Origin: a virus
Virus record (IMG/VR): IMGVR_UViG_3300028258_000017
Span: 1-20,626 of that record
Reading direction: 5' to 3' (one strand)
Length of the DNA: 20,626 nt
Positions 3,625 to 17,272 of this stretch are shown piece by piece (the first letter of the stretch is position 1; every line of letters starts with the position of its first letter). Below the pieces are notes generated by a model that was not told the origin of the DNA, did not search any database, and was given only the letters and a program-made list of their open reading frames with translations. The position numbers were made by a program, and so were the translations under genes.

Positions 3625-4626
3625 ATGAAATTCTACCGTTTCAAGAAAGAATTCGCTGCGTACGGTGCATCACGCACCGGGGATGAGAATTTTGATCCTT
3701 CGTTCGTGATGATTTTCTTTGATGATGTTGTTCCTTCGTATGATTACGCCCGTCCAATCAATGATCCTCGTCTCTGGGCTTATGAATGTGAAGTGGATGA
3801 GGTGACGGATAAGAAAGAGATTGCCTCTATTGAGAAGGAATTGAATCAGGATGTGGAAATCCTCCTGAAGAAAACCAATCCTAAGCGAGGGCTCGGTTCT
3901 TTCGCAATGAAGGGCCAAGGTGGAGCATTTTATGCTTCACATCGAATTGCCTGCCATGCAGGATTTAATGGAAAAGGGAGGGTTGCTGCCTGCACTTGGA
4001 ATCTGTTCCTTCTGAAAGAAGAACAGAAGCCTCTTATTCGTGAGCTTGTCGAATGGCTCGTGAACGACAGTCCCTGGCTGCATTGTATTGCCTCTCGCTG
4101 GGATATCCTCTCTGCCCAGGAACGCACTGACCGTGCTATGGAGGGTCCTGTACCTGTCAACATGGACGCTCCAGCGAATGAAGTGGTAGGTTTTGCTGTT
4201 GCCATGCGTACCATCACTGAACATCCGTGGGTGATTCAAACTTACGTTGAACTGCGTAAGCTGGGGGCGTCTAAGGCTGTTGCCTTCATGCTCACTGGCT
4301 ATGTTCAATTCGACAATGGTAAATGGCTTCCGTACTCCAACACCAATTGGCATCATTACCTCGATGAACGGATGAATGTCAAGGACGTGTGCAAGTTCTT
4401 CAAGGGAGGCTATTTCCTGGAGAGACGCTCGTTGCACAAATTCTCTGAACGGAGGTACGACAGGATTGCAGAACAAGTGACCTATTTGGAAGAGGAAGGA
4501 GAAATGACATTCCGTTCCATTCGTGGTAAACATACTGAAACTACAGGCCGTGGATTCTACAGACAGGCTACCGTCGATGTGCCCTCCCTCATCCGTGAAG
4601 TGAATCAAATCTGGAGCGAAGCATGA
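3625..4626 (+). CDS. Hypothetical protein (333 aa) coupled to GATase
   Basis: It encodes 333 residues starting MKFYRFKKEFAAYGASRTGD at ATG 3625, with GAGG at 3611-3614. I cannot assign a family. The protein is soluble; a central section (RIACHAGFNGKGRVAACTW, about residues 107-125) is rich in Cys and Gly and is followed by mixed helix and strand. The C-terminus (SLIREVNQIWSEA) is helical. Its stop overlaps the start of the class I glutamine amidotransferase by four bases (ATGA), so the two are translationally coupled and likely act together, perhaps as synthase and glutaminase partners. That pairing is inference from position only. A 120-base gap upstream holds a possible TATAAA -10 at 3519-3524 but no clear -35. 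Confidence 0.85.
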   Translation: MKFYRFKKEFAAYGASRTGDENFDPSFVMIFFDDVVPSYDYARPINDPRLWAYECEVDEVTDKKEIASIEKELNQDVEILLKKTNPKRGLGSFAMKGQGGAFYASHRIACHAGFNGKGRVAACTWNLFLLKEEQKPLIRELVEWLVNDSPWLHCIASRWDILSAQERTDRAMEGPVPVNMDAPANEVVGFAVAMRTITEHPWVIQTYVELRKLGASKAVAFMLTGYVQFDNGKWLPYSNTNWHHYLDERMNVKDVCKFFKGGYFLERRSLHKFSERRYDRIAEQVTYLEEEGEMTFRSIRGKHTETTGRGFYRQATVDVPSLIREVNQIWSEA

Positions 4627-5240
4627 AGCGTGTATACATCGAACAGAGCAGCTTCCATTACCAAATGCTGTTCATCAAGCTGGGGTTTACTGTCGTCAGT
4701 GACCCTGATGAGGCCGATTTGATTTGCTTCACAGGTGGGGCAGACGTGTCTCCCTATCTGTACGGGGACAAACAGCATGAATTGACAGGGAACAACGCTG
4801 TCCGCGATGAGAAGGAACATCGTCTGTTCGACAAGGCCCAGGAGAACGGAACGCCTTGCGTAGGTATCTGTCGTGGCGGTCAGTTCCTGAACGTCATGTC
4901 TGGTGGACGTATGTTTCAACATGTCGAGAAGCATACGAACAGCCATTACATCACCGATCATGAGACAGGTGAGGTGGTGTATGTGTCTTCCACGCACCAT
5001 CAGATGATTATGCCTGGTCCTGGTGCTCAGGTTGTGGCTACTAGCAATCTGAAAGGCAAGCGTGAATGGTATGACGGTGTTGTCTTCCAGAAGGATGTGG
5101 CAGATGAGGACTACGAGGTGGTGTTCTATCCAGCGACACAATCCCTTTGTTTCCAGCCTCATCCTGAATTCACTGGCGAATCCTACGAGCCTATGGCTCA
5201 GTATTTCAAGAGTCTCATCACTCGTCTTTTGAAGGTTTAA
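4623..5240 (+). CDS. Class I glutamine amidotransferase (peptidase C26-like)
   Basis: The 205-residue protein has the triad of class I amidotransferases: nucleophile Cys83 in GICRGGQ, and His180 with Glu182 in FQPHPEF. FTGGADVSPYLYG (residues 36-48) and STHHQM (123-128) match the gamma-glutamyl-GABA hydrolase/C26 branch. Such enzymes hydrolyse glutamine, passing ammonia to a partner, or cleave gamma-glutamyl amides. There is no fused synthase domain, so it either acts alone as a gamma-glutamyl hydrolase or serves the coupled 333-residue protein or the ligases at 8478-11613. It starts at the ATG of an ATGA overlap and is directly followed by tRNA-Arg. The catalytic residues are intact, so it is probably active. 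Confidence 0.93.
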   Translation: MKRVYIEQSSFHYQMLFIKLGFTVVSDPDEADLICFTGGADVSPYLYGDKQHELTGNNAVRDEKEHRLFDKAQENGTPCVGICRGGQFLNVMSGGRMFQHVEKHTNSHYITDHETGEVVYVSSTHHQMIMPGPGAQVVATSNLKGKREWYDGVVFQKDVADEDYEVVFYPATQSLCFQPHPEFTGESYEPMAQYFKSLITRLLKV

Positions 5241-5245
5241 CAAAT

Positions 5246-5322
5246 ACCACCGTAGCTCAATAGGATAGAGCAGCAGATTTCTAATCTGTAGGTTGGGGGT
5301 TCGAGTCCCTCCGGTGGTGCCA
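5246..5322 (+). tRNA. tRNA-Arg (UCU)
   Basis: A full cloverleaf: acceptor ACCACCG pairs with CGGTGGT; D arm GCTC/GAGC; anticodon stem GCAGA/TCTGT with loop TTTCTAA, giving anticodon TCT at 5280-5282; T arm GGGGG/CCCTC with loop TTCGAGT; encoded CCA at 5320-5322. It reads AGA/AGG codons, often rare in GC-rich hosts. It begins six bases after the amidotransferase stop and so is probably processed from the same transcript. Confidence 0.95.
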
Positions 5323-5329
5323 TATAATC

Positions 5330-5515
5330 ATGCTTATCAAATCAAAAGTCTTTAATTGGGATGTTGTTGATGCCAAAGATATCAAACCAACTCTAGACGA
5401 GTTTGTTGATAAGTACGGTATTGAGAATGTCCAACTTCGAGTTGGTTACAGGTACAACGGCGGCTATGAATACAAAACCATAGGTGTTTTTGCCTACTCT
5501 CCCGAAAAGAAGTAA
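5330..5515 (+). CDS. Hypothetical protein (61 aa) between tRNAs
   Basis: It encodes 61 residues starting MLIKSKVFNWDVVDAKDIKP and ending VFAYSPEKK. The ATG at 5330 is only seven bases after the CCA of tRNA-Arg and has no clear Shine-Dalgarno, so after tRNA processing its message would be nearly leaderless. An alternating hydrophobic pattern (VQLRVGYRYNGGYEYKTIGV) suggests a small beta-sheet protein. The family is not recognised. It is flanked tightly by tRNA-Leu five bases downstream. Confidence 0.65.
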   Translation: MLIKSKVFNWDVVDAKDIKPTLDEFVDKYGIENVQLRVGYRYNGGYEYKTIGVFAYSPEKK

Positions 5516-5520
5516 TTAGC

Positions 5521-5604
5521 GCCCCGATGGTGAAATTGGTAAACACATCGGATTTAAGCTCCGACGCTTATGGCTTGCGAGTTCGACTCTCGCTCGGGGC
5601 ACCA
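5521..5604 (+). tRNA. tRNA-Leu (UAA)
   Basis: Acceptor GCCCCGA pairs with TCGGGGC; anticodon stem TCGGA/TCCGA with loop TTTAAGC gives anticodon TAA at 5555-5557; a long variable arm (CGCTTATGGCTTG region) as in class II tRNAs; T arm GCGAG/CTCGC with TTCGACT; encoded CCA at 5602-5604. It reads UUA/UUG and, like the Arg tRNA, would help translate an AT-richer phage in a GC-rich host. Confidence 0.95.
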
Positions 5605-5626
5605 ACACATTCAATGGAGAAACGTC

Positions 5627-5836
5627 ATGAAGAAAGTTTATGAGCCTGGTGAGATGTTCCGTGAGGCTTATTTAGGTGCTGTCGCTGATGAATATGCTTG
5701 GAGCAAGATAGGTTCCATTGCCAAGAAAACATACGCTGAACAAGAGCGGAGGTTTATGAACCTGCTCTCCCTGAAAGCAGAGAACGACGAACAAACCGAT
5801 GATAGCTCGGGCCTGCCAGCCTCGCTGATGAATTGA
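5627..5836 (+). CDS. Hypothetical protein (69 aa)
   Basis: It encodes 69 residues starting MKKVYEPGEMFREAYLGAV. The ATG at 5627 follows GGAGA at 5616-5620; frame-compatible codons upstream lie inside tRNA-Leu and are rejected as start. The protein is mainly helical and charged (KKTYAEQERRFMNLLSLKAE). Its last codons carry GATGATAGCTC plus GGGCCTGCCA (5798-5818), which also appear, in the same order, upstream of the membrane-protein gene at 3053, so the tail may derive from recombination. Confidence 0.65.
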   Translation: MKKVYEPGEMFREAYLGAVADEYAWSKIGSIAKKTYAEQERRFMNLLSLKAENDEQTDDSSGLPASLMN

Positions 5837-5844
5837 AAAGAATT

Positions 5845-5980
5845 TACCCTTTAGCATCAGTGGGAGATGTTAGATTAACACAGTTAATTCCAGACGGACA
5901 CGGGATAATTTATTATCTTAGCCCCTAGGTAGGTAACAACTGTCAGCTTCTAGGCACAGGTTCGATTCCTGTAAGGGTGA
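5845..5980 (+). other. tRNA-like segment split by a 60-80 base insert
   Basis: The 5' part TACCCTT (5845-5851) pairs with AAGGGTG (5973-5979) like an acceptor stem. It is followed by T8-A9 and a D arm GCATC-AGTGGGA-GATGT with the conserved A14, G15, G18, G19 and A21. The 3' part has a perfect T arm, ACAGG-TTCGATT-CCTGT (5956-5972). Between them are about 80 bases instead of about 30, including stems ATTAAC/GTTAAT and GATAA/TTATC. No clean anticodon arm and no CCA are encoded. It may be an interrupted or decayed tRNA, or a structural mimic. The insert is too short for a usual group I intron. Confidence 0.4.
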
Positions 5981-5982
5981 AC

Positions 5983-6171
5983 ATGATTCTTAAAAACCTT
6001 CTACAAGCGATTATTTGCCTCTCCCTAGGGGCAGGTATTGGCTGGTATGTAAAACCCTCTCCAAAGCCCGTTAAAGAGCTTGTAGAGCTACCTGCAACTG
6101 ATGAACAACTCCTTGCCTTCTGGTTTGGCCCAGGGGATAAGGCTAAATTGAGAAAGAGAGTTTGTAAATGA
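5983..6171 (+). CDS. Small single-span membrane protein (62 aa)
   Basis: It encodes 62 residues from ATG 5983; a GTG two codons upstream is possible but lies in the tRNA-like stem. Residues 4-22 (KNLLQAIICLSLGAGIGWYV) form one hydrophobic span, followed by a Pro/Lys-rich linker KPSPKPVKELVELP and a soluble tail of about 30 residues. This layout suits an inner-membrane anchor with a small domain. It has no lipobox or recognisable family. Its stop overlaps the next start (ATGA). Its ribosome site is weak. Confidence 0.6.
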   Translation: MILKNLLQAIICLSLGAGIGWYVKPSPKPVKELVELPATDEQLLAFWFGPGDKAKLRKRVCK

Positions 6172-6491
6172 AACATCCACATGCAGAGGTAATTAAGGCT
6201 TGGGCCGATGGTAAGACCGTTCAAGGCCGTCCTCCGAGGACTGAGTGGCAAGATTTCACATACAACGGAGATAATTACATGACTTTCGACAAGAACCTAG
6301 AATACCGCATCAAGCCTGAAGAAGTGGTGGATTACGGTATGATTTTCCATACTGGTACTACTTCTAGTCAGTATTTCCAAGACAAAGAAAAACTACTCTC
6401 GTATTATGTACGAGAAACGGAGTATCAAGGATTCCTCAAGCGCACCACTGTCGATGGCAAAGTGGTGAAGATGGAATTCATCCCTAAATAA
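6168..6491 (+). CDS. Phage protein of unknown function (107 aa)
   Basis: The N-terminus MKHPHAEVIKAWADGKTVQG followed by W-x-D-F and NLEYRIKPEE resembles, from memory, a small protein common in many phages, with a conserved His-Ala-x-x-Ile-x-x-Ala-Trp-Ala-Asp-Gly opening and a YRIKP motif. Its function is not established. Start and previous stop overlap (ATGA), giving coupling. The next downstream sequence is the remnant start of the class II amidotransferase. Confidence 0.8.
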   Translation: MKHPHAEVIKAWADGKTVQGRPPRTEWQDFTYNGDNYMTFDKNLEYRIKPEEVVDYGMIFHTGTTSSQYFQDKEKLLSYYVRETEYQGFLKRTTVDGKVVKMEFIPK

Positions 6492-6522
6492 CTCTCTCAT
6501 TCAATCGAACTAAGGAAAAACT

Positions 6523-6534
6523 ATGTGTGGCTAA
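6523..6534 (+). pseudogene. Orphan start of class II amidotransferase
   Basis: AAGGA (6512-6516) and ATG TGT GGC TAA (6523-6534) encode Met-Cys-Gly-stop. Met-Cys-Gly is the mandatory opening of class II glutamine amidotransferases. I read it as the original ribosome site and first codons, cut off from the rest by the HNH gene inserted downstream. A second ATGTGTGG copy is at 6557-6564. Confidence 0.55.
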
Positions 6535-6589
6535 TTAATTCTGAAATTGGAGTCTTATGTGTGGTAGGAATAACCGCACAGGAGATTTT

Positions 6590-7069
6590 ATGAAAAGAAT
6601 TGTTAGACCAAATGCGACCAAACAAGAAGAAATCGAGGACTTGCTCAAGCAAACCGTTAGATCGGGGGATTGCCTAGAATGGGTAAGATGTTTTAATACG
6701 GATGGTTACCCTAGAATGGCAGGTAATGTAAAAGTCCACAGGAGGATTTATGAAATAAGTTCTGGATTAGATATTGCTGGATTGGTTGTAAGGCATAAAT
6801 GTGACAACCCAAGGTGCATCAATCCTGAGCACTTATCGCATGGAACACAATCTGATAATGTCAGTGACCGTGATTCTCGTGGGAGAACTTTCCGCAAAAT
6901 CACCCCTGAAATTATCGCACGAGTGAAAGACCTTCTTCAGGTTAAAATTCTATCGAACAATGAGATTGCTGATATAGTCGGTATCGACTATCGACGTGTC
7001 AGTGATATTTCTAACGGCTTATATAGCGACGACGGGAAATTCTTTCGCCGCGGAATACGGAGATTTTAA
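6590..7069 (+). CDS. HNH homing-type endonuclease
   Basis: The 159-residue protein has the HNH_3-type core: GDCLEWVRC near residue 26, HRRIYEISSG, then VVRHKCDNPRCINPEHLSHG with the paired cysteines and catalytic histidines, and TQSDNVSDRDSRGR after it. The C-terminal part (ILSNNEIADIVGIDYRRVSDIS) is a helix-turn-helix DNA-binding module. Start ATG 6590 has GGAG at 6581-6584; an in-frame ATG at 6557 (also with GGAG) would add 11 residues beginning MCGRNN. The DNA is AT-richer than the neighbouring enzymes. It is inserted at the very start of the class II amidotransferase gene and its stop is one base before the presumed new AUU start of that gene. Confidence 0.9.
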   Translation: MKRIVRPNATKQEEIEDLLKQTVRSGDCLEWVRCFNTDGYPRMAGNVKVHRRIYEISSGLDIAGLVVRHKCDNPRCINPEHLSHGTQSDNVSDRDSRGRTFRKITPEIIARVKDLLQVKILSNNEIADIVGIDYRRVSDISNGLYSDDGKFFRRGIRRF

Positions 7070-7070
7070 A

Positions 7071-8456
7071 ATTTGTGGACTCGTTGGTATCGCCGGTAAT
7101 CTCGGCATCAAGCATGAACGTGCATTCAAGACAATGCTAATTCTCGACACCCTCCGTGGAATCGACAGCACGGGTGCTGTTATTGTCCATCGTGACGGTA
7201 CATTTGACACTCCGAAGGCTATTGGACATGCCTACAACCTTTTGGAATCCCGTGTCTTCAATGAAGGAATGAAAGGGATTCACACGGCATTGATTGGACA
7301 CAATCGCTTCGCCACACAGGGTCGTGTCTCTGTTCGCAATGCTCACCCTTTTGAATTCAACAAGGTTGTGGGTGCTCACAATGGTACGCTGAAGAACAAA
7401 TACTACCTCGAGGCAGGTCACAAGTTTGATGTGGACAGTGAGGCTCTCTACCATCACATCAACTCTAAGGGTGTTGAGGATGCCATCAAGGGTTTGGATG
7501 GTGCTTGGGCACTAACTTGGTACAACATCGAGGAAGGCTCTCTCAACTTCCTTCGTAACAAGGAACGTCCGTTGTGGATGACTGTTCTCAAGGGAGGTCA
7601 GTTGGCCTGGGCCTCCGAGCAATGGATGTTGGAAGTTGCTTTGTCTCGTGAGGAACTGGAATACACCGATCCTGAGCAACTGCCTGTCGATCAATGGCAC
7701 AAGATTCAGCTCCATGCTGATGGCTCCCTTGGCAAACCTCATGTGGTGCCGCTGGCCTCCCGATTTCAACCCTACGTCTCACAAGGGAGCGGGGAATGGC
7801 GAAACGGAGCTTGGCACTCCAAACCGACGATTGTCACGACGGGAACGCAAACGACTGGAACGTCAAATGTTGCAAGTGTTCAAACCCCTGTTGCTGGAGC
7901 CGCAGGAGTAATCATTGACAACAAGAAGATCGAAGACAGTGGTGTGGACAATGGCTCTCCTTATGCCAAGGGTATTGAGGTGAAACTGTATGTTTTCGGG
8001 TGTGGCCACGATACCAGTGGTGGTAAGTATTACATGTGTCGTGATGCAGCCTCTCCTCAACGGAACATCAAGCTGTTCATCAATCAGAATGACAAGACAG
8101 AGCTGCTGAATAAGCACATCTGGGCAGAGATGCACACATATTCTGTCCGTGATCGTTATGGCTTGTATTACAAGGTGCAACACAGCACTGTCCGTCTGGA
8201 TAAGGCTGACATCAACACAGTTACTAAGGAGGTGGTGGAAGAGCTGGCTGACGGCACTTCTGCTGGTCGATTTTTCCACGACAGTAAAGGAGCCCTCATC
8301 CCTGAACAAGACTGGTACAAGAAGCACGGAGAATGTGCTTGGTGTTCTGGTCATGTCAACCCTAACATGGCTTTCAAATTCACTCAATCTGGCGAAGCTG
8401 TTTGCCACGAATGCGTCGCCCAAGGCGAAGTAAATCAATACGTTCAATTCCACTAA
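7071..8456 (+). CDS. Class II glutamine amidotransferase, apparent AUU start
   Basis: An Ntn-type glutaminase domain with a C-terminal extension, 461 residues if started at ATT 7071. All family motifs are present: Cys2-Gly, RGIDSTG (29-35), GHNRFATQG (76-84), NAHPF (90-94), HNGTL (103-107) and DSEAL (122-126). The enzyme attacks glutamine with its N-terminal cysteine and releases ammonia. The C-terminus has a zinc-ribbon-like CxxC (422/425) and CxxC (445/448). No ATG lies directly before the cysteine: the codon is ATT, with GGAG at 7059-7062 eight bases upstream, an ideal place. The alternative start ATG 6996 would add 25 residues and require propeptide removal. The ligases and ATP-grasp gene follow directly, so it probably supplies ammonia or acts in the same amide-forming pathway. 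Confidence 0.88.
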   Translation: MCGLVGIAGNLGIKHERAFKTMLILDTLRGIDSTGAVIVHRDGTFDTPKAIGHAYNLLESRVFNEGMKGIHTALIGHNRFATQGRVSVRNAHPFEFNKVVGAHNGTLKNKYYLEAGHKFDVDSEALYHHINSKGVEDAIKGLDGAWALTWYNIEEGSLNFLRNKERPLWMTVLKGGQLAWASEQWMLEVALSREELEYTDPEQLPVDQWHKIQLHADGSLGKPHVVPLASRFQPYVSQGSGEWRNGAWHSKPTIVTTGTQTTGTSNVASVQTPVAGAAGVIIDNKKIEDSGVDNGSPYAKGIEVKLYVFGCGHDTSGGKYYMCRDAASPQRNIKLFINQNDKTELLNKHIWAEMHTYSVRDRYGLYYKVQHSTVRLDKADINTVTKEVVEELADGTSAGRFFHDSKGALIPEQDWYKKHGECAWCSGHVNPNMAFKFTQSGEAVCHECVAQGEVNQYVQFH

Positions 8457-8477
8457 CTGAAGCTAAAAGGAATCATC

Positions 8478-9272
8478 ATGTCTCAAATTCTCGTCGGTTG
8501 CGATCCTGAAGTGTTTGTCAAACAGAACGGTATCTTCCGTTCCGCTCATGGCCTCATCAAAGGCGACAAGAAGAACCCTCACAAGATTCGATCTGGCGCT
8601 GTCCAAGTGGATGGTATGGCTCTCGAATTTAACATCGACCCTGCCAAGAGCGAGGACGAGTTTGTCTTCCTTGTGAATGACGTGTATGAACAGATGCGCC
8701 TGATGGTGCCTGAGTTTGAAGTGGTGGCTGTCCCTGTCGCCAAGTTCGATGAGGCATACATGAAGGAGCAGCCCAAGGAAGCCTTGGAACTTGGTTGCGA
8801 TCCTGACTTCAATGGTTGGGATGGCAACGCCAACGTCAAGCCTGATGGTGACCGTCCTATGCGTACTGCTTCGGGGCATGTCCACATTGGTTGGACGGAT
8901 GGTAAGAACCCTCTGGATGGCAACCACCTGAACCAATGTCGTATGGTGGCTCGACAGATGGACTTCTTCCTGGGCCTCGGCTCCCTGTTCTATGACCAGG
9001 ACAAGGAACGTCGTCAGATGTACGGCAAGGCTGGCTGCTTCCGTCCGAAGCCTTATGGCGCGGAGTATCGTACTCTCTCGAATGCTTGGCTCAACAGTGA
9101 GAAGCTGATGCGCTGGGTGTATCGAAACACTGTCAAGGGTATGAATCAACTCATGGATGGTGTCGACCTGGCTGACAAGTACGGAGACATTCAGAAGATC
9201 ATCAACACTTCCAATCGCAAGGAAGCCCTGAAGATCATGAAGGCTGAGAACCTGGAGATCCCTAATGCTTGA
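8478..9272 (+). CDS. COOH-NH2 ligase type 2 (phiEco32-like amidoligase)
   Basis: The 264-residue protein matches the glutamine-synthetase-fold amidoligases known from phiEco32. Visible motifs are GCDPEVFV (7-14), VQVDGMALEFN (42-52), ASGHVHIGW (131-139) with metal/ATP-binding His residues, and YGAEYRTLSN (193-202). The family joins a carboxylate to an amine with ATP; substrates are unknown. The ATG at 8478 follows AAAAGGAATC. It lies 21 bases after the class II amidotransferase and overlaps the next gene by eight bases, so the cluster is translated as a unit. It is shorter than the second ligase at 9866 and belongs to a different branch. Confidence 0.88.
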   Translation: MSQILVGCDPEVFVKQNGIFRSAHGLIKGDKKNPHKIRSGAVQVDGMALEFNIDPAKSEDEFVFLVNDVYEQMRLMVPEFEVVAVPVAKFDEAYMKEQPKEALELGCDPDFNGWDGNANVKPDGDRPMRTASGHVHIGWTDGKNPLDGNHLNQCRMVARQMDFFLGLGSLFYDQDKERRQMYGKAGCFRPKPYGAEYRTLSNAWLNSEKLMRWVYRNTVKGMNQLMDGVDLADKYGDIQKIINTSNRKEALKIMKAENLEIPNA

Positions 9273-9894
9273 CCCACGAGTTTCTGTAGAAGACCTCCGT
9301 ACCTTCTGGAAGGGCTGTATTGCTATCCACGAAGGGGAGCCTGTTCTTGTAATCAATGTCGGCTCTGACGGCAACAAGAAGGTTGCCCAAGTTAAGAGCT
9401 TGAAGGATGGCAACATCGAACGTGTGTGGATTAAGGAGGACAACACCCTGACCCCTCCTGACTCTCGTCTCGGCTATGTCAATCTGAATGGCCTTGTTGT
9501 CTACGTCAGCCGTGCCCCTGTCCGTCGATTCATGATGGGCATTAACGACAGTAACATCAAGGTTGGTAAGCTGATTGACTTCTTTCGTTATGAACGTGGT
9601 GAGATTCATAGCCTCTCCACGTCTAGCATGGAGTTCTATCGAACCCTGAAAGGTATCTACCCTTCTCTTCCTGAAGCTATTGAGCAAGTGAAGACATTTG
9701 GAGGTGTCTGCGCATTCGATAGGCAGTTCGCTGTCTGTGAGAATCGTCACCTGTATTACAAGAAACGTAAGGTTGGTCGTGTCCTGCGTGGAGCAACTGA
9801 CCTCCGTGGCCTGGAATTCTCCCCTGAATTCCAATATCTGAAATCTGTTGTCTGGAACTTTGACTATGACCAAGCTGCACGCACTGTTGGGTAA
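9265..9894 (+). CDS. Hypothetical protein (209 aa) within ligase cluster
   Basis: It encodes 209 residues starting MLDPRVSVEDLRTFWKGC at the ATG at 9265, which overlaps the end of the first ligase. Residues 18-60 (CIAIHEGEPVLVINVGSDG, IERVWIKEDN) look like a small beta-barrel. The section around residues 98-135 is more helical, and a basic stretch YYKKRKVGRVLRG lies near residue 165. I do not recognise a family. Sandwiched between two amidoligases with overlaps on both sides, it may be an accessory subunit or the acceptor substrate; both are inference. Confidence 0.82.
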   Translation: MLDPRVSVEDLRTFWKGCIAIHEGEPVLVINVGSDGNKKVAQVKSLKDGNIERVWIKEDNTLTPPDSRLGYVNLNGLVVYVSRAPVRRFMMGINDSNIKVGKLIDFFRYERGEIHSLSTSSMEFYRTLKGIYPSLPEAIEQVKTFGGVCAFDRQFAVCENRHLYYKKRKVGRVLRGATDLRGLEFSPEFQYLKSVVWNFDYDQAARTVG

Positions 9895-10855
9895 GAACAA
9901 CCTTCAAGGAGAGGTTGTCGGTATCGAAATCGAAGCCGAAGGTAACGGCATGAAGGCTGTCGTCTTAGACGACTGGCGGAGCGAGGATGATGGTTCCCTT
10001 CGTGGCGAATTCCCTAGCTCCCGTCACGAGTTTGTCTCGTCCCCTTTGAAGGCGGCGGATGTGAGCCAGGCTCTCGATAAGCTGATTGATTCACAGAAAG
10101 GTGCGGAGATTGATTTCAGCTTCCGTACTTCCTCTCATGTCCATGTGAATTGTTTGGACATGGATGTCCAGGCTATCGGCGCCTTCGTCTACACCTACTT
10201 CCTGTTGGAGAAAGACTTGATGCGTTATTGCGGTGAACATCGTAATAACAATCGATTCTGTCTCCGAATGGTGGATAGTGATGAACTCACTGAAATCCTG
10301 AAGTGCCTCATTCAACTTGGCTTCCGTGACATGCGGGTGTTTGTCAACGAAGAGCTTCGCTATGGTGCATGTAACATGGCCTCTCTGTCGAAGTACGGCA
10401 CTCTCGAGTTCCGTGGGATGCGTGGCACTATGGATAAGAAAGTGTTGCTGAACTGGATTGGTGCATTGCTGAAGATTCGTCAGTATGCGATTGAAAAAGG
10501 GAATGCTTGGAATGTCTACACTGAAGCAGTGAATGACCACGACGCTTTCCACAAGAAAGTTCTTGGTGATCTGACGGATGTGTTCATCCAGCCTGATGCG
10601 GCTTTCCATCTTGCTGAAGCTCTCAGCTTGACAATTGAAGTGCCTTTCGAGGCCAAGGAATATGCCTCTCGTCAAGCGGAAGCGAAGGAAAAGAGACGTA
10701 TTGCAAAACCCGGCGGTAAGGATATGTTCGTCGCACGAGGGGGTATTTTTGATCCTGTCCCTCCTATCCCTGAGGGGCACCGCGTTCGCCTTGTACCTCA
10801 AGGATGGGAAATTGTTGATGACCGAGTGAACCCTGTTAACATCGTGGAATTCTAA
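9866..10855 (+). CDS. Amidoligase enzyme (second COOH-NH2 ligase)
   Basis: The 329-residue protein has the amidoligase pattern: GIEIEAE (19-25), DDGSLRG (41-47), HEFVSSPL (54-61), TSSHVHVN (88-95) and RYGACNMASLSKYGTLEFRG (165-184). These are the acidic metal ligands, the His pair and the Arg-containing strand of the glutamine-synthetase-like fold, so an ATP-dependent amide or peptide bond is the expected product. The C-terminal 90 residues are an extension with a charged helix (ASRQAEAKEKRR) and a tail VPQGWEIVDD. I chose ATG 9866; a TTG at 9848 would add six residues. It overlaps the preceding gene by 29 bases and is followed two bases later by the ATP-grasp gene. Confidence 0.87.
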   Translation: MTKLHALLGKNNLQGEVVGIEIEAEGNGMKAVVLDDWRSEDDGSLRGEFPSSRHEFVSSPLKAADVSQALDKLIDSQKGAEIDFSFRTSSHVHVNCLDMDVQAIGAFVYTYFLLEKDLMRYCGEHRNNNRFCLRMVDSDELTEILKCLIQLGFRDMRVFVNEELRYGACNMASLSKYGTLEFRGMRGTMDKKVLLNWIGALLKIRQYAIEKGNAWNVYTEAVNDHDAFHKKVLGDLTDVFIQPDAAFHLAEALSLTIEVPFEAKEYASRQAEAKEKRRIAKPGGKDMFVARGGIFDPVPPIPEGHRVRLVPQGWEIVDDRVNPVNIVEF

Positions 10856-10857
10856 TC

Positions 10858-11613
10858 ATGACACACATCTACGCTTACAACAATGCTTCTGAGTCGGCTA
10901 AGGCTCTCTCTGCTGCTACCGGGTACAAGCGTATCCGACATGAAGGGAGACCTCTTCGTGTTGGTACGGTGATTAATTGGGGGGCTTCCAAGATTGAACG
11001 GGAAATCGAGGGCGCTATCATCAATAAACCCGAGGCAATTGCGAAAGCCTCTAATAAGCTCTCTGCCTTCAAATTGTTTAAGGGCGAGGGGGTAGCCACC
11101 CCTGCCTTCACTGAGAGCCTAGAGGAGGCTAATAAATGGCTTGCTGAAGGTTCGGTTGTTGTGGCTCGTACCAAGCTCAACGCCCATAGTGGGGATGGAA
11201 TTGTCATTGTCGATCCCGACTCCGAGCCGAAGGTGGACATCCCTAATGCCAAGCTGTATACTAAGTACATCCCTAAGGCAGAGGAATACCGTCTCCACGT
11301 CTTTCGTGGGAATGTCTTCTTTGTTCAGCGTAAGGCTCGTAATAAGGACATCCCTGATGAGAAGGTGAATTGGAAGGTGCGAAATCATGGCAATGGTTTC
11401 ATCTATTCCAATCAGGATGTGAAGGTGTTCAATTTGGAAGATGCGTATTATCAGTCCATCTCTGCTGTAAAGGCGCTTGGTTTGGACTTCGGTGCTGTCG
11501 ATCTTGTTTACAATCGTAAACAGAACAAGCATTACGTTCTGGAAGTGAACACTGCCCCTGGATTGTCTGGAGCTACGCTTCAGGCTTATGTTGATTTGTT
11601 CAAGGATTTGTGA
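10858..11613 (+). CDS. ATP-grasp ligase (RimK-like)
   Basis: The 251-residue protein carries an ATP-grasp fold: a variable N-terminal domain with RHEGRPLRVGTVINWG, the nucleotide loop VVARTKLNAHSGDGIVIVD (101-119), LYTKYIPKAEEYRLHVF (133-149), and the Mg/ATP-binding end with Asp215 (FGAVDLVY) and Glu229/Asn231 (LEVNTAPGLSG). Such enzymes activate a carboxylate as acyl-phosphate and couple it to an amine or thiol; RimK relatives add glutamates to proteins. As the last gene of the cluster, with a two-base gap to the amidoligase, it probably performs a successive ligation on the same target. The length is near the minimum for the fold, consistent with a compact phage version. Confidence 0.92.
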   Translation: MTHIYAYNNASESAKALSAATGYKRIRHEGRPLRVGTVINWGASKIEREIEGAIINKPEAIAKASNKLSAFKLFKGEGVATPAFTESLEEANKWLAEGSVVVARTKLNAHSGDGIVIVDPDSEPKVDIPNAKLYTKYIPKAEEYRLHVFRGNVFFVQRKARNKDIPDEKVNWKVRNHGNGFIYSNQDVKVFNLEDAYYQSISAVKALGLDFGAVDLVYNRKQNKHYVLEVNTAPGLSGATLQAYVDLFKDL

Positions 11614-12875: not shown

Positions 12876-13120
12876 GCAACGAATTTGAAATTGCCAATCT
12901 CGAAGATCAGATTGAAGAGCTTCAAGAAATGGTTCAGAGTCTCTCCTATGACATTGAGCTTATGAAACTAGAGATTGTGGAGCGAGGGGACATGATTAAG
13001 GCTCTTACTGTCCAGAACACAACTTTGAAGAAACAACTTATGAAGAAAATCGAGACGGACGTAAAAGTCGCTGCAATTCTAAAACCAACTGTGAGGGAGG
13101 ACAATGGGGAAGTCAGTTGA
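12872..13120 (+). CDS. Coiled-coil protein (82 aa)
   Basis: It encodes 82 residues starting MSNEFEIANLEDQIEELQEM. Residues 5-62 show heptad-like spacing of Leu/Ile/Met with acidic and basic residues (LEDQIEELQEMVQSLSYDIE), a coiled coil likely to oligomerise. It is coupled by ATGA to the NinX-like gene and overlaps the primase-helicase start by 17 bases. It may bridge or load a replication protein, judged only from the neighbour. Confidence 0.75.
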   Translation: MSNEFEIANLEDQIEELQEMVQSLSYDIELMKLEIVERGDMIKALTVQNTTLKKQLMKKIETDVKVAAILKPTVREDNGEVS

Positions 13121-14750
13121 AAAACTAAGGCACTCGTGTGGTTCCCATGCTTTGCAGGTTTTCCTACAGGACGACGGAACGTATGATGCTTTCTGTTTTG
13201 CCTGTGGCAAGTACGAACCCAATCCTTACGGAGACAAGCCTCCTGGCTACCGCCCTCAAATCAAAATCAAAAGCCCTGAAGAAATTCAGGCTGAGATTGA
13301 TGAGGTTAAGGATTACCAAGTTGTAGCGATTGAAGATCGTAAGCTCCGTAAAGAGTCCCTTGAATACTTCGGTGTGAAAGTGGGAGTATCTGAAGAGGAC
13401 GGTGTAACACCTTATTCCGTCTACTTCCCTTACTTCCGTAACGGAGAGCTTCAAGGATATAAGGCTCGTGTTCTTAACCCGAAGAAGATGTGGGCCATTG
13501 GCTCTACGAAGGATGTTGACTTGTTCGGATGGGAGCAAGCTCTCAAGACTGGCGCTAAGAAGCTATTCATCACTGAAGGTGAATTCGATGCCATAGCCCT
13601 TTATCAGATTTTTAAAGATCAAAACAAGTTCTCCCAATATGCTCACCTTGATCCTGCTGTTGTCTCTCTGCGGACTGGAGCAGGCAATGCTTACAAAGAA
13701 CTCCCTTCCAAAATCAAGGAGATCCGTCAGCATTTCAAGGAGATCATTCTAGTATTCGATACTGACGAGCCAGGTAAGAAAGCTGCCGAAGACGTTATCA
13801 AGATTCTCCCGGATGTAATGGTTGCCACTCTTCCGGGTAAGGATGCTAACGAATGTCTTCTGGAGGGTAAGTCCAAGGCTTGCTACAATGCTTGTCAGTT
13901 CAGGGCTGAAAAGCCTAAGAACACTCGTATCGTCTCAGGGGATGAATTGCACGAGAGTGCAAAGGAAATCCCTAAGATTGGTTTGGACTGGCCTTGGAAA
14001 CACATCACTAAAACCACTCGTGGCTTACGATTCGGAGAGACAATCTACCTAGGTGCAGGGCAGAAACAAGGCAAGTCAGAAGTGGTTAACACTTTGGCTG
14101 CTCACTTCATCAAGAACTACGGTTTGAAGGTGTTCCTTGCGAAGCCAGAGGAGAGTAACAAGAAAACTTACAAGTTAGTGGCAGGTAAGTTGGAAGGTAA
14201 GTTCTTTCACGATCCTGACAAAGAGTTTGATGAACAGGCTTACAACAAGGCAGGTGAGACGCTCAAAGGCCACCTCTACATGCTCAATCTCTACCAACAC
14301 GTCGGTTGGGATTCTTTGAAAGAAGACATCCGTCATGCGTGTACGGTGGAGGGTTGTAAGGTTGTGATGATCGACCCCATTACCAACTTAACAAACGGCA
14401 TGGACGCCGCTACAGCAAATGTCAAACTTCAAGAAATTGCTCAAGAACTCTCGGCTATGGCTCTTGATCTCAACATTCTCATCTTTATCTTTTGCCATTT
14501 GCGTAATCCTGATTCAGGTCCGCCACATGAGCGGGGAGGTGAAGTTTTATCCTCTCAATTTGCTGGCAGTCGTGCTATGGCTCGTAGCTGCAATCTCATG
14601 CTCGGTCTGGAGGGCAATCGAGATCCAAACCTCTCCACTGAGGAGAGGAATTTGAGAACTCTAGTTCTTCTTGAGGATCGAGAGTTTGGTGAGGTCGGTC
14701 GGTTCAAGCTGTATTGGGATCGAGCAACTGGATTGTTTAACGAGGTGTGA
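13104..14750 (+). CDS. DNA primase-helicase (T7 gp4-like)
   Basis: A 548-residue bifunctional enzyme. The N-terminal zinc module has Cys12, His15, Cys31 and Cys34 (CGSH, CFAC). The Toprim primase core shows LFITEGEFDAIAL with Glu158/160 and VFDTDEPG with Asp219/221. The helicase half has Walker A GAGQKQGKS (317-325), Walker B VVMIDP (420-425), the motif FIFCHLRNP and the C-terminal EDREFGEVGRFKLYWDR. It unwinds DNA and lays primers for the polymerase at 15398. The length is close to T7 gp4. GGGAGG at 13095-13100 precedes the ATG at 13104, inside the end of the coiled-coil gene. Confidence 0.96.
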   Translation: MGKSVEKLRHSCGSHALQVFLQDDGTYDAFCFACGKYEPNPYGDKPPGYRPQIKIKSPEEIQAEIDEVKDYQVVAIEDRKLRKESLEYFGVKVGVSEEDGVTPYSVYFPYFRNGELQGYKARVLNPKKMWAIGSTKDVDLFGWEQALKTGAKKLFITEGEFDAIALYQIFKDQNKFSQYAHLDPAVVSLRTGAGNAYKELPSKIKEIRQHFKEIILVFDTDEPGKKAAEDVIKILPDVMVATLPGKDANECLLEGKSKACYNACQFRAEKPKNTRIVSGDELHESAKEIPKIGLDWPWKHITKTTRGLRFGETIYLGAGQKQGKSEVVNTLAAHFIKNYGLKVFLAKPEESNKKTYKLVAGKLEGKFFHDPDKEFDEQAYNKAGETLKGHLYMLNLYQHVGWDSLKEDIRHACTVEGCKVVMIDPITNLTNGMDAATANVKLQEIAQELSAMALDLNILIFIFCHLRNPDSGPPHERGGEVLSSQFAGSRAMARSCNLMLGLEGNRDPNLSTEERNLRTLVLLEDREFGEVGRFKLYWDRATGLFNEV

Positions 14751-14930: not shown

Positions 14931-15401
14931 ATGTACGAAATCATCGAGAATCACTACCGAGAGAATTACGGTAGAATCATGAAACGAATGACCTTCCGTG
15001 CAGGAGGTGTTCACCAAGCTGAAGACATTGTTCAGGAGGCATATGCACGAGCCATGAAATACTACAACACCTTGCGTGTTGATGAATTCGAGAAATGGTT
15101 TTCGATGATTTTGAACAACTCTTACAACGACTACATGCGTGACGAGATTGGTCTTTCGTACATCGAAGAGGATGATGAGCCTCTTGGTTTAGTCGAATGT
15201 GGTCTGGTAACCGATCAGACACGAAGGGAAGTGTACGACATCATCTCCACGAAGAGCGAAGCTCAGAAAGAGATTCTGACAATGCACCTTCGTCATGGCT
15301 ACAGCGCCACTGACATTTCCAATCTGACTGACTACACCTATGCTAAGATCCATCACATCATCAGCAGGTTCAGGGATGAGCTTAGGAGTTTATACACATG
15401 A
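14931..15401 (+). CDS. ECF-like RNA polymerase sigma factor
   Basis: The 156-residue protein has both ECF sigma domains. Region 2 is AEDIVQEAYARAMKYY (about residues 31-46) with FEKWFSMILNNSYNDYMRDE (59-78), matching the core-binding and -10-recognition helices. Region 4 is QKEILTMHLRHGYSATDISN then TYAKIHHIISRFRDELRSLY, a -35-recognising helix-turn-helix. It should direct host RNA polymerase to phage middle/late promoters, as phiEco32 gp36 does. GAGG at 14921-14924 precedes the ATG at 14931; its end overlaps the polymerase start (ATGA). No anti-sigma gene is visible. TAATGTAAA at 1305 is a possible target site. Confidence 0.88.
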   Translation: MYEIIENHYRENYGRIMKRMTFRAGGVHQAEDIVQEAYARAMKYYNTLRVDEFEKWFSMILNNSYNDYMRDEIGLSYIEEDDEPLGLVECGLVTDQTRREVYDIISTKSEAQKEILTMHLRHGYSATDISNLTDYTYAKIHHIISRFRDELRSLYT

Positions 15402-17272
15402 GAATTGCATTTGGTGACCTAGAGGCTGATGGTCTTCTCGATACAGTCACCAAAGTGCATTGTGGTGTGTTTAGAGAAAAGGGACAGGAAGCCCTTAAAT
15501 TCGGCCCAGGTGACGTTAAAAAGATGTTGGCATACCTAGATACTGTCGATGTCTTAATCATTCACAACGGGCTTGGATACGATCTCCCATTACTGGAGAA
15601 GTTGTACGGATATACCTTCAAAGGTAAAGTTGTTGACACACTCATCATGTCTCGACTGCTCAAGCCTAAGAGGCTGCTTCCGTTCAACTGTCCTGATAAG
15701 AAGATTGGCCCTCATTCGATTGCAGCCTGGGGCTATCGAGTGGGAAGAGGTAAGCCAGAGCATAACGATTGGGAAGTGTTCTCCCCAGAAATGCTTCACC
15801 GTTGTTCCGAGGACGTAGAGATCCTTATCCTCGTGTATGATGCTCTGATGGAAGAGGCCAAAGGAAAGGGCTGGCGTAATGCTTTCCTTCTAACTTTCGA
15901 GCTGTTCAAGAATCTTCAGAAACAAGAGCAGTATGGCTGGTTAGTAGACACCGATCACATGCGCAAGTGCATCCATCAACTAGAACGATGGATTGATCGT
16001 ATCGACAGATCGATTCACAAATATCTCCCTACTGTTATCGAAGTAGAGGAGTCTAAAACAAAAGGAGAATATGGGTACATCAAGAAACCGTTCCTCAAAT
16101 CTGGGCAGTATTCTCAAAGTGTTTGCGACTGGTATTCTAGTAATTGCATCGATCGGAGCCATTCTCCCGTTGGTGCTTGCTTCTCTCGCATAACATTTCG
16201 TAAAACCAATCTCAATTCTAATGATGAGACGAAGAGATTTCTACTCGACTTAGGATGGGAACCTAAAGAATGGAATACAAATGACGAAGGAGAACGTACC
16301 TCCCCAAAGCTCAGTAAAGACGACCCTTTCGAGGGGATTAATGGCGCTCTTGGCAGACTTGTTGCTAAAAGGGTTCAGTGTCGTCAGAGAAAAGGGATCA
16401 TCGAGGGACTTTTGGAGATTGTTCGGGCTGACGGTGCTATTGCTAGTAGTGTTGCTAATCTGGCTGAAACCGGACGGGCAACTCATCGTGGAATCGTTAA
16501 CATCCCTGGTGCTAAGTCTTTCTACGGTAAGCAGATGAGGCAGATTTTTGTGGCAAGACCCGGAATGGTGATTGTAGGGACAGACTCCGACAGTTGCCAG
16601 ATTCGCATGCTTGCTGCGAGAATGAAAGACCCGGCGTATACTGAGGCAATTCTTAACGGTAAAAAAGAAGATGGTACGGACCTGCACAGTGTTAACATGC
16701 GAGCAGCAGGTCTTAAAACCCGCGATCAAGCAAAATCTTTCTTCTATGCCTTCTTGTTCGGTGCTGGTGACGAAAAGATAACCAAGTTGACAGGTAAAAA
16801 CGGAGGGGCTTTGAAAAGAGAGTTCTTAGCCGGGCTCCCAGCACTAGGCGCTCTAATCGAGAAGCTAAAAGCAGAATGGCGTAAGAATGCAAAACAAAGA
16901 TTCAATCCTAAATTCAACCGTATGGAGCACTACGATGGTTGGGTTACAGGGTTGGATGGGCGACCCATCTATATTGCTTCTGAACACGCCATCTTGGTGT
17001 ATGTGCTTCAATCTGATGAAGCGATTATGATGGCAAAAGCATATAATTTCGCTAACCAGCGATTGCTCGATGCAGGGCTTGAATACGGAAAAGATTTTGG
17101 ATTCCTTACCTGGATGCACGATGAGTACCAGGTCGAGTGTCTAGAAAAGTGGAAGTTTGTAGTCAAAGAAATATGCGAGGCATCTATATCAGATGCAGCT
17201 AAGTTCTATAACATAGATTGTCCACATATAGGGAGTTCTGATTTTGGATACAATTGGGCCGAAACGCATTAA
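15398..17272 (+). CDS. Family A DNA polymerase (T7-like)
   Basis: 624 residues. The 3'-5' proofreading domain has Asp7 and Glu9 (GDLEADG), Asn57...Asp62 (IIHNGLGYDLP) and Asp139 (CSEDVEIL). Pol motif A is TDSDSCQIRMLA with catalytic Asp396; motif B is RDQAKSFFYAFLFGAG (442-457) with Arg442, Lys446 and Tyr450, the latter aligning with T7 Tyr526; motif C is MHDEYQVEC with His574, Asp575 and Glu576. Both activities look intact. The motif B LFGAG has Phe where T7 has Tyr (LYGAG). It is somewhat shorter than T7 gp5. It is coupled to the sigma factor gene by ATGA, an unusual pairing that ties replication to the transcription switch. Confidence 0.97.
   Translation: MRIAFGDLEADGLLDTVTKVHCGVFREKGQEALKFGPGDVKKMLAYLDTVDVLIIHNGLGYDLPLLEKLYGYTFKGKVVDTLIMSRLLKPKRLLPFNCPDKKIGPHSIAAWGYRVGRGKPEHNDWEVFSPEMLHRCSEDVEILILVYDALMEEAKGKGWRNAFLLTFELFKNLQKQEQYGWLVDTDHMRKCIHQLERWIDRIDRSIHKYLPTVIEVEESKTKGEYGYIKKPFLKSGQYSQSVCDWYSSNCIDRSHSPVGACFSRITFRKTNLNSNDETKRFLLDLGWEPKEWNTNDEGERTSPKLSKDDPFEGINGALGRLVAKRVQCRQRKGIIEGLLEIVRADGAIASSVANLAETGRATHRGIVNIPGAKSFYGKQMRQIFVARPGMVIVGTDSDSCQIRMLAARMKDPAYTEAILNGKKEDGTDLHSVNMRAAGLKTRDQAKSFFYAFLFGAGDEKITKLTGKNGGALKREFLAGLPALGALIEKLKAEWRKNAKQRFNPKFNRMEHYDGWVTGLDGRPIYIASEHAILVYVLQSDEAIMMAKAYNFANQRLLDAGLEYGKDFGFLTWMHDEYQVECLEKWKFVVKEICEASISDAAKFYNIDCPHIGSSDFGYNWAETH

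Follow-up and report, generated by a model that had tools for sequence, protein, structure and literature searches.

A divergent phage amidoligase cassette in a Zobellviridae-like genome fragment, and the exchange of its class-I-fold amidotransferase for a gamma-glutamyl cyclotransferase in other phages

Several groups of phages carry amidoligase genes described as a 'peptidoglycan modification cassette'; the papers name phiEco32, RIO-1/PSA-HP1, PA11, CW02, LUZ24/tf and phiM6 as carriers, and cite Iyer 2009 and Hardies 2013 for the view that the cassette alters host peptidoglycan and blocks superinfection (PMC5498523, PMC6256558, PMC10580990). A gamma-glutamyl cyclotransferase (GGCT) is named in the published gene list, but as a variable member. 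We analyzed a 20,626-base stretch of an IMG/VR virus record (IMGVR_UViG_3300028258_000017, hereafter the window), in which one operon holds two amidoligases (LIG2 and AMIDO2), an ATP-grasp ligase (GRASP) and a glutamine amidotransferase (GATase; GAT-II), as in the published cassette. The ligases, the glutaminase, the gene order and the neighborhood of a primase/helicase gene are the same in both, and in both the cassette adjoins podophage replication genes. The window differs in that it has a class-I-fold GATase (GAT-I) and no GGCT within its 20.6 kb, in its tRNA and HNH gene insertions and in a probable ATT start of GAT-II. Among 50,697 phage records none was close to it in DNA sequence; its DNA polymerase is nearest to those of Zobellviridae podophages (48-56% identity), and by sequence it is part of a Zobellviridae-like podophage genome. 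The cassette is already known, and the window is a divergent, added member. A sequence-only reading of this DNA had proposed a cluster of amide-bond enzymes, noting related phage operons without a known product; the published cassette bears this out, and Pfam and PHROGs confirmed all five enzymes that it had named. New are the exchange of GAT-I and GGCT, the conserved residues of the protein U1, the AUU/AUC starts of GAT-II and the all-or-none presence of the cassette.

Two pathways provide precedents for such enzymes, since PuuA/PuuD and BtrJ/BtrG each attach a gamma-glutamyl group and later remove it. Like the cassette, the PuuA/PuuD pathway combines a ligase with a gamma-glutamyl hydrolase of the C26 family, and PuuD is among the nearest solved relatives of GAT-I; by Pfam, however, LIG2 does not belong to the PuuA family, and the cassette adds further ligases, GAT-II, U1 and a second protein of no assigned function, U2. 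In butirosin synthesis an ATP-grasp enzyme (BtrJ) adds a gamma-glutamyl protecting group that an enzyme of GGCT fold (BtrG) removes. The cassette likewise has an ATP-grasp ligase and, in many relatives, GGCT, whereas it has neither a carrier protein nor aminoglycoside genes; the two systems are compared as working alike, not as relatives.

For comparison, loci were fetched with a profile of LIG2, a type-2 COOH-NH2 ligase (80 from IMG/VR and 14 from bacterial assemblies), and scanned with iterated profiles of all seven cassette families; 105 loci were compared. An alignment query was used for IMG/VR, where single-protein scans with LIG2, U2 and U1 had given no matches. As the loci were selected for LIG2, all counts apply to LIG2-bearing phages. 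The order U1, GAT-I, GAT-II, LIG2, U2, AMIDO2, GRASP was exact in 52 of the 105 loci, and most others had this gene set but with an additional or relocated ATP-grasp gene, or were cut by a contig end. Catalytic residues were kept in 93-100% of rows at the counted positions except K140 and R161 of the ATP-grasp ligase. The loss of catalytic residues in relatives, which the sequence-only reading had named as grounds for refutation, was therefore not encountered, these residues being essentially invariant. LIG2 (PF14395, E=3e-6; phrog_3815, E=7.5e-88) has ten polar residues that are each kept in at least 104/105. AMIDO2 (PF12224, E=4e-11; phrog_7469, E=5e-49) keeps Glu21, Glu23, His91, His93 and Arg126 in 101/101, and a comparison of the LIG2 and AMIDO2 profiles showed no similarity. 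Two Zobellviridae phages of Vibrio, 1.235.O and PS32B.1 (loci L114 and L115), found via their polymerase, had none of the seven genes within the 34-36 kb around it, the stretch before the helicase being occupied by other genes. In these cases the cassette is thus all-or-none, and dispensable to the lineage.

The most informative variation concerns GAT-I, which matched Peptidase_C26 (E=3e-20), GATase (E=8e-5) and phrog_7218 (E=8.5e-48), and whose triad Cys83/His180/Glu182 is kept in 87/87. Among solved structures it is nearest to Lin1909, to three chains labeled 'probable glutamine amidotransferase' and to PuuD. GGCT was present in 10 of the 11 cassettes without a recognizable GAT-I (phiEco32, Bas88, tf, TL, LAh_8, TacPo2, ZRK32, Vibrio 172P1, Vibrio 275E43-1 and Slicky01), and in 172P1, 275E43-1 and Slicky01 it lies in the exact slot of GAT-I, between U1 and GAT-II. 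Its catalytic motif is intact in the alignment, which includes the 172P1 and Slicky01 proteins. When GAT-I was present and the flanks were complete (n=48), GGCT was missing from 41 cassettes, for which reason we do not treat it as cassette-defining, and present in seven. The association gave a Fisher probability of 3e-6, or 1e-4 with the GAT-I-less phages merged into eight lineages of our own grouping, in a test that ignores kinship among the GAT-I-bearing phages. Two unrelated folds that remove gamma-glutamyl groups thus share one slot, which points to a gamma-glutamyl removal step. Since cassettes without GAT-I nearly always have GGCT, GAT-I is probably not the ammonia donor that its earlier description as a class I amidotransferase would imply but a gamma-glutamyl hydrolase on the C26/PuuD side of its family. 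For enzymes of the GGCT type the glutamyl residue must have its amino group free; the substrate should therefore be a capped amine rather than the gamma-D-Glu bond within peptidoglycan. The exchange also provides a chemical handle, a gamma-glutamyl intermediate to look for.

We therefore propose, with about even confidence, that the cassette runs a short pathway in which a gamma-glutamyl group serves as a temporary cap. LIG2, and perhaps AMIDO2, would join the glutamate side chain to an acceptor amine at the expense of ATP, in the manner of glutamine synthetase, to which LIG2 is likened by family assignment. AMIDO2 and GRASP would then form further amide bonds, one of them fed with ammonia that GAT-II releases from glutamine, and the cap would be taken off by GAT-I or, in other phages, by GGCT. 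U1 would be a further cysteine enzyme, and U2 may hold the ligases or the substrate. As acceptor, a cytoplasmic precursor of the cell envelope would be our first guess and a protein tag the second. The genes themselves are present, intact and conserved, and GAT-I and GGCT do interchange. Several points nevertheless weigh against this pathway. Comparison of LIG2 and AMIDO2 with PDB sequences gave nothing meaningful, and with no solved relative by sequence the term 'gamma-glutamyl ligase' applies to them at the level of the family. For every named hydrolase GAT-I scores far under the curated cut-off (its top NCBIfam matches being gamma-glutamyl-CDP-amidate hydrolase with 32.1 bits for a cut-off of 250, and PuuD with 25.7 bits for a cut-off of 266), so that it is a member of the family with no substrate assigned. 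Neither GAT-I nor GGCT was seen in Proteus phage P59, the seven full-flank cassettes mentioned above hold both, and the kinship disregarded in the Fisher test also counts on this side.

The published proposal, in which the stem peptides of the host wall are altered, for instance on cytoplasmic precursors, so that superinfection is blocked, is a claim on the target and can be compatible with the cap mechanism. It has been made for this same cassette (PMC5498523; PMC6256558; PMC10580990). The type-2 ligase matched 312 phage records, with Pseudomonas, E. coli, Klebsiella and Vibrio among the hosts; all hosts named in these records are Gram-negative genera, in line with such a target. Our literature search found no experiment on it, and the cassettes have no wall-specific gene in common. 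Moreover, the free amino group that GGCT needs is missing from gamma-D-Glu within a stem peptide, so that GGCT cannot simply degrade peptidoglycan as has been suggested. We regard a peptidoglycan target as possible, though tentative.

The ATP-grasp ligase directs attention to proteins as acceptors. GRASP matched phrog_2599 (E=5e-82) and, weakly, Pfam ATP-grasp_3/RimK, and its metal ligands Asp215, Glu229 and Asn231 are kept in 106/106. It is nearest to the RimK/MptN glutamate ligases and to the ribosomal-peptide ligases MvdC/MvdD, and with 37 bits against the RimK family model (cut-off 143.4) it classifies as RimK-like, not as RimK. Host or virion proteins might accordingly receive amino acids or short peptides, much as ribosomal protein S6 does from RimK. 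In Brevibacillus, relatives of LIG2 are neighbors of mutS, with spore-coat and miaB-type genes close by, which is also a plausible setting for tagging. A simple tag would, however, need less than three ligases and a glutamyl remover, and a search for a shared precursor peptide found no small gene family common to all cassettes. Protein tagging thus appears rather doubtful. Small-gene families 3 and 9 of that search look like out-of-frame shadows of LIG2. The Brevibacillus loci (L099-L103 and L104) have no other cassette genes and were excluded from the cassette counts; in Brevibacillus reuszeri (L099, 9041-10534) the LIG2 relative is chromosomal and longer than LIG2, and it immediately precedes mutS, with a miaB-like gene nearby.

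The proximity of GAT-I to PuuD-type hydrolases among solved structures, and the ligase/hydrolase pair of nearly every cassette, are also what would be expected if putrescine or spermidine were capped with gamma-glutamate, as in PuuA/PuuD or the Pseudomonas Spu/Pau systems. This polyamine chemistry is improbable, because LIG2 has no Pfam match to the glutamine synthetase family of PuuA and because AMIDO2, GRASP, GAT-II and U1 would be left without a role.

GAT-II matched GATase_6 (E=5e-15) and phrog_4736 (E=7e-75). Many phage records label it 'GlmS', with which it has the N-terminal glutaminase domain in common: residues 1-188 aligned with the glmS model, at 43.9 bits for a cut-off of 418. Pfam found GATase domains only and no SIS domain in GAT-II, where GlmS has two SIS isomerase domains, and the C-terminal part bears CxxC motifs; the label is wrong. 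This bears on the suggestion, made by the authors of phage ZRK32 from growth effects, that such genes aid host ammonium assimilation or amino-acid synthesis (PMC10945688). The ZRK32 fragment does hold LIG2, U2, AMIDO2, GAT-II, GRASP and GGCT. Auxiliary nitrogen metabolism is very unlikely all the same, as three ligases with a gamma-glutamyl remover match no known assimilation route, the 'GlmS' name is mistaken and the set is kept or missing as a whole. Hypermodification of DNA bases with an amino-acid or peptide group is highly unlikely, for although the cassette adjoins replication genes in all lineages examined, virion DNA of the cassette phage tf is cut by RsaI, HpaI, EcoRV, SmaI and HaeIII (PMC3517423).

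In all aligned rows the Cys1/Arg/Asn/Gly/Asp residues of GAT-II are unchanged. Class II GATases need this cysteine immediately after the start Met, which makes the preceding codon the expected start. Across 89 genes this codon was ATT in 16 and ATC in 6 (22/89). In 15 GAT-II genes (L006, L007, L013, L014, L020, L023, L031, L039, L040, L041, L044, L051, L056, L080, L090) there was no ATG, GTG or TTG between the preceding stop and the cysteine, and the same test gave 0/101, 0/101, 0/92, 0/91, 0/85 and 0/9 for the other six families, with only 9 genes covered for U1. The frames of these 15 relatives force a non-canonical start, unlike that of the window, where two canonical in-frame starts are available 24 and 26 codons upstream, within the HNH gene. 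The GAT-II N-terminus in the window is most likely at the ATT of 7071-7073, and translation would then begin at an AUU codon. A quick tree required at least 12 start-codon changes on well-supported branches, and near-identical proteins have unlike starts (ATG in L012 and ATT in L013; ATC in phage O4 and TTG in L086). Isolates, Pseudomonas phage O4 and Klebsiella phage Asterion, are among the cases, so that assembly faults are not the sole explanation. The public annotation of three such genes starts downstream of the cysteine; standard gene callers thus shorten GAT-II in public records and lose its catalytic residue. The record of Pseudomonas phage TL (L112, 10780-11881) gives GAT-II as two separate pieces, and the gene may be broken there. 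A search of one literature collection found no paper on such AUU/AUC starts in phages; their recurrence makes them a natural set for studies of near-cognate initiation.

U1 keeps Cys110 in 78/78, Arg195 in 78/78, Glu199 in 75/78 and His243 in 77/79. Of 70 members, 69 were without any Pfam match and the other had a stray one, and a search of PDB structures (Foldseek, VIA) gave a best E of 1.2 and a best Z of 3.1 (95 residues, 4.1 A); with no credible match, we claim no fold. Among predicted viral structures the U1 model had 13 matches with E<=0.001, and the relatives named are from phages CVT22, CW02, RIO-1, LAh_6 and GAP52, all of cassette-carrying groups. From its conservation and model we regard U1 as probably a new cysteine enzyme. 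Two genes that precede LIG2 in phiEco32-like phages gave weak profile matches to the Arg195 segment of U1 (probability 47% and 16%). One or more uncharacterized genes with a CFG motif are found before LIG2 in L108 and in the phiEco32-like L105, L106 and L109; a paralogous family is suggested by the structural match of some LAh-type proteins to the U1 model. The sequence-only reading had counted two unknown proteins, and both do belong to the cassette; they are not equivalent, however, as U1, with its conserved Cys, Arg, Glu and His, lies outside the range then given. U2 lies within it, and its structure model (pLDDT 89.6) has a small N-terminal SH3-like barrel of unclear kinship. Relatedness to SH3/KOW/Tudor/EF-P-like barrels was considered and set aside, the best Z of 5.9 covering only 51 residues (1.7 A) in a common arrangement.

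AUU starts are held down by initiation factor IF3, as known from infC and pcnB. A more far-reaching version of the cap pathway would be that an undescribed compound or tag is made via the removable gamma-glutamyl cap, that U1 represents a new family of cysteine enzymes present only in cassette-type phages, and that the AUU/AUC starts of GAT-II, gained repeatedly, set the output at translation. We give this combination only a small chance of being correct; if true, it would link cassette output to IF3. No cassette protein matched a PADLOC defense model at E<=0.1. With more than 300 sequenced phages matching the type-2 ligase and the job of the cassette guessed at since 2009, it is useful that two phages of E. 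coli, phiEco32 and StefiGeyer_Bas88, have it and make it testable in standard hosts.

The features of the window are listed in Table 1. All cassette genes are on the + strand and the five named enzymes are in frame. The cluster had earlier been placed at 4623-11613; the enzymes are there, whereas the set begins earlier, with U1 at 3625-4626, and that range also takes in two tRNAs, an ORF (6168-6491) and an HNH gene that are outside the conserved seven and, in the case of the tRNA and HNH genes, break up the operon. AMIDO2 probably starts at ATG 9866 rather than at TTG 9848, as judged from the sequence. Promoter and terminator scans were no better than shuffles (13 versus 10.1 and 10 versus 8.7).

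Table 1. Coordinates of cassette genes, inserted elements and downstream replication genes in the window (ORF, open reading frame; Ntn, N-terminal nucleophile).
Feature	Position	Strand	Remarks
U1, 333-aa protein of no assigned function	3625..4626	+	first gene of conserved order; 4-base overlap with GAT-I
GAT-I, class-I-fold GATase, Peptidase_C26 family	4623..5240	+	Pfam, PHROGs
tRNA-Arg (TCT)	5246..5322	+	ARAGORN; operon insertion, outside conserved seven
tRNA-Leu (TAA)	5521..5604	+	ARAGORN; operon insertion, outside conserved seven
Small accessory ORF	6168..6491	+	weak phrog_21668/34112; relatives in 8 loci only; outside conserved seven
HNH endonuclease, inserted gene	6557..7069	+	PF13392 E=4e-9, phrog_6254; outside conserved seven
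Shine-Dalgarno-like GGAG	7059..7062	+	8 bases upstream of ATT codon; similar motifs in relatives
GAT-II, class II glutaminase (Ntn type), C-terminal CxxC..CxxC part	7071..8456	+	probable ATT start 7071-7073
GAT-II catalytic Cys codon	7074-7076	+	
LIG2, type-2 COOH-NH2 ligase (PF14395)	8478..9272	+	glutamine synthetase-like by family assignment
U2, 209-aa protein of no assigned function (phrog_11055), N-terminal SH3-like barrel	9265..9894	+	
AMIDO2, Amidoligase_2 family (PF12224)	9866..10855	+	
GRASP, RimK-like ATP-grasp ligase	10858..11613	+	
Primase/helicase	13104-14750		downstream of cassette
DNA polymerase	15398-17272		downstream of primase/helicase

Some of these arrangements recur in the relatives. 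In L012, L013, L015, L018, L027, L030, L033, L035, L038, L043 and L061 an additional, shorter ATP-grasp gene precedes GAT-II, and it sits between GAT-I and GAT-II in those loci that have GAT-I. Genes for tRNA-Arg(TCT) and tRNA-Leu(TAA) are found again in or near the cassette, often in the gap between GAT-I and GAT-II, in L014, L018, L019, L027, L033, L035 and L038. Finally, in Klebsiella phage Asterion (L006, 12272-14603) the primase/helicase gene is in two parts with an HNH endonuclease gene between them.

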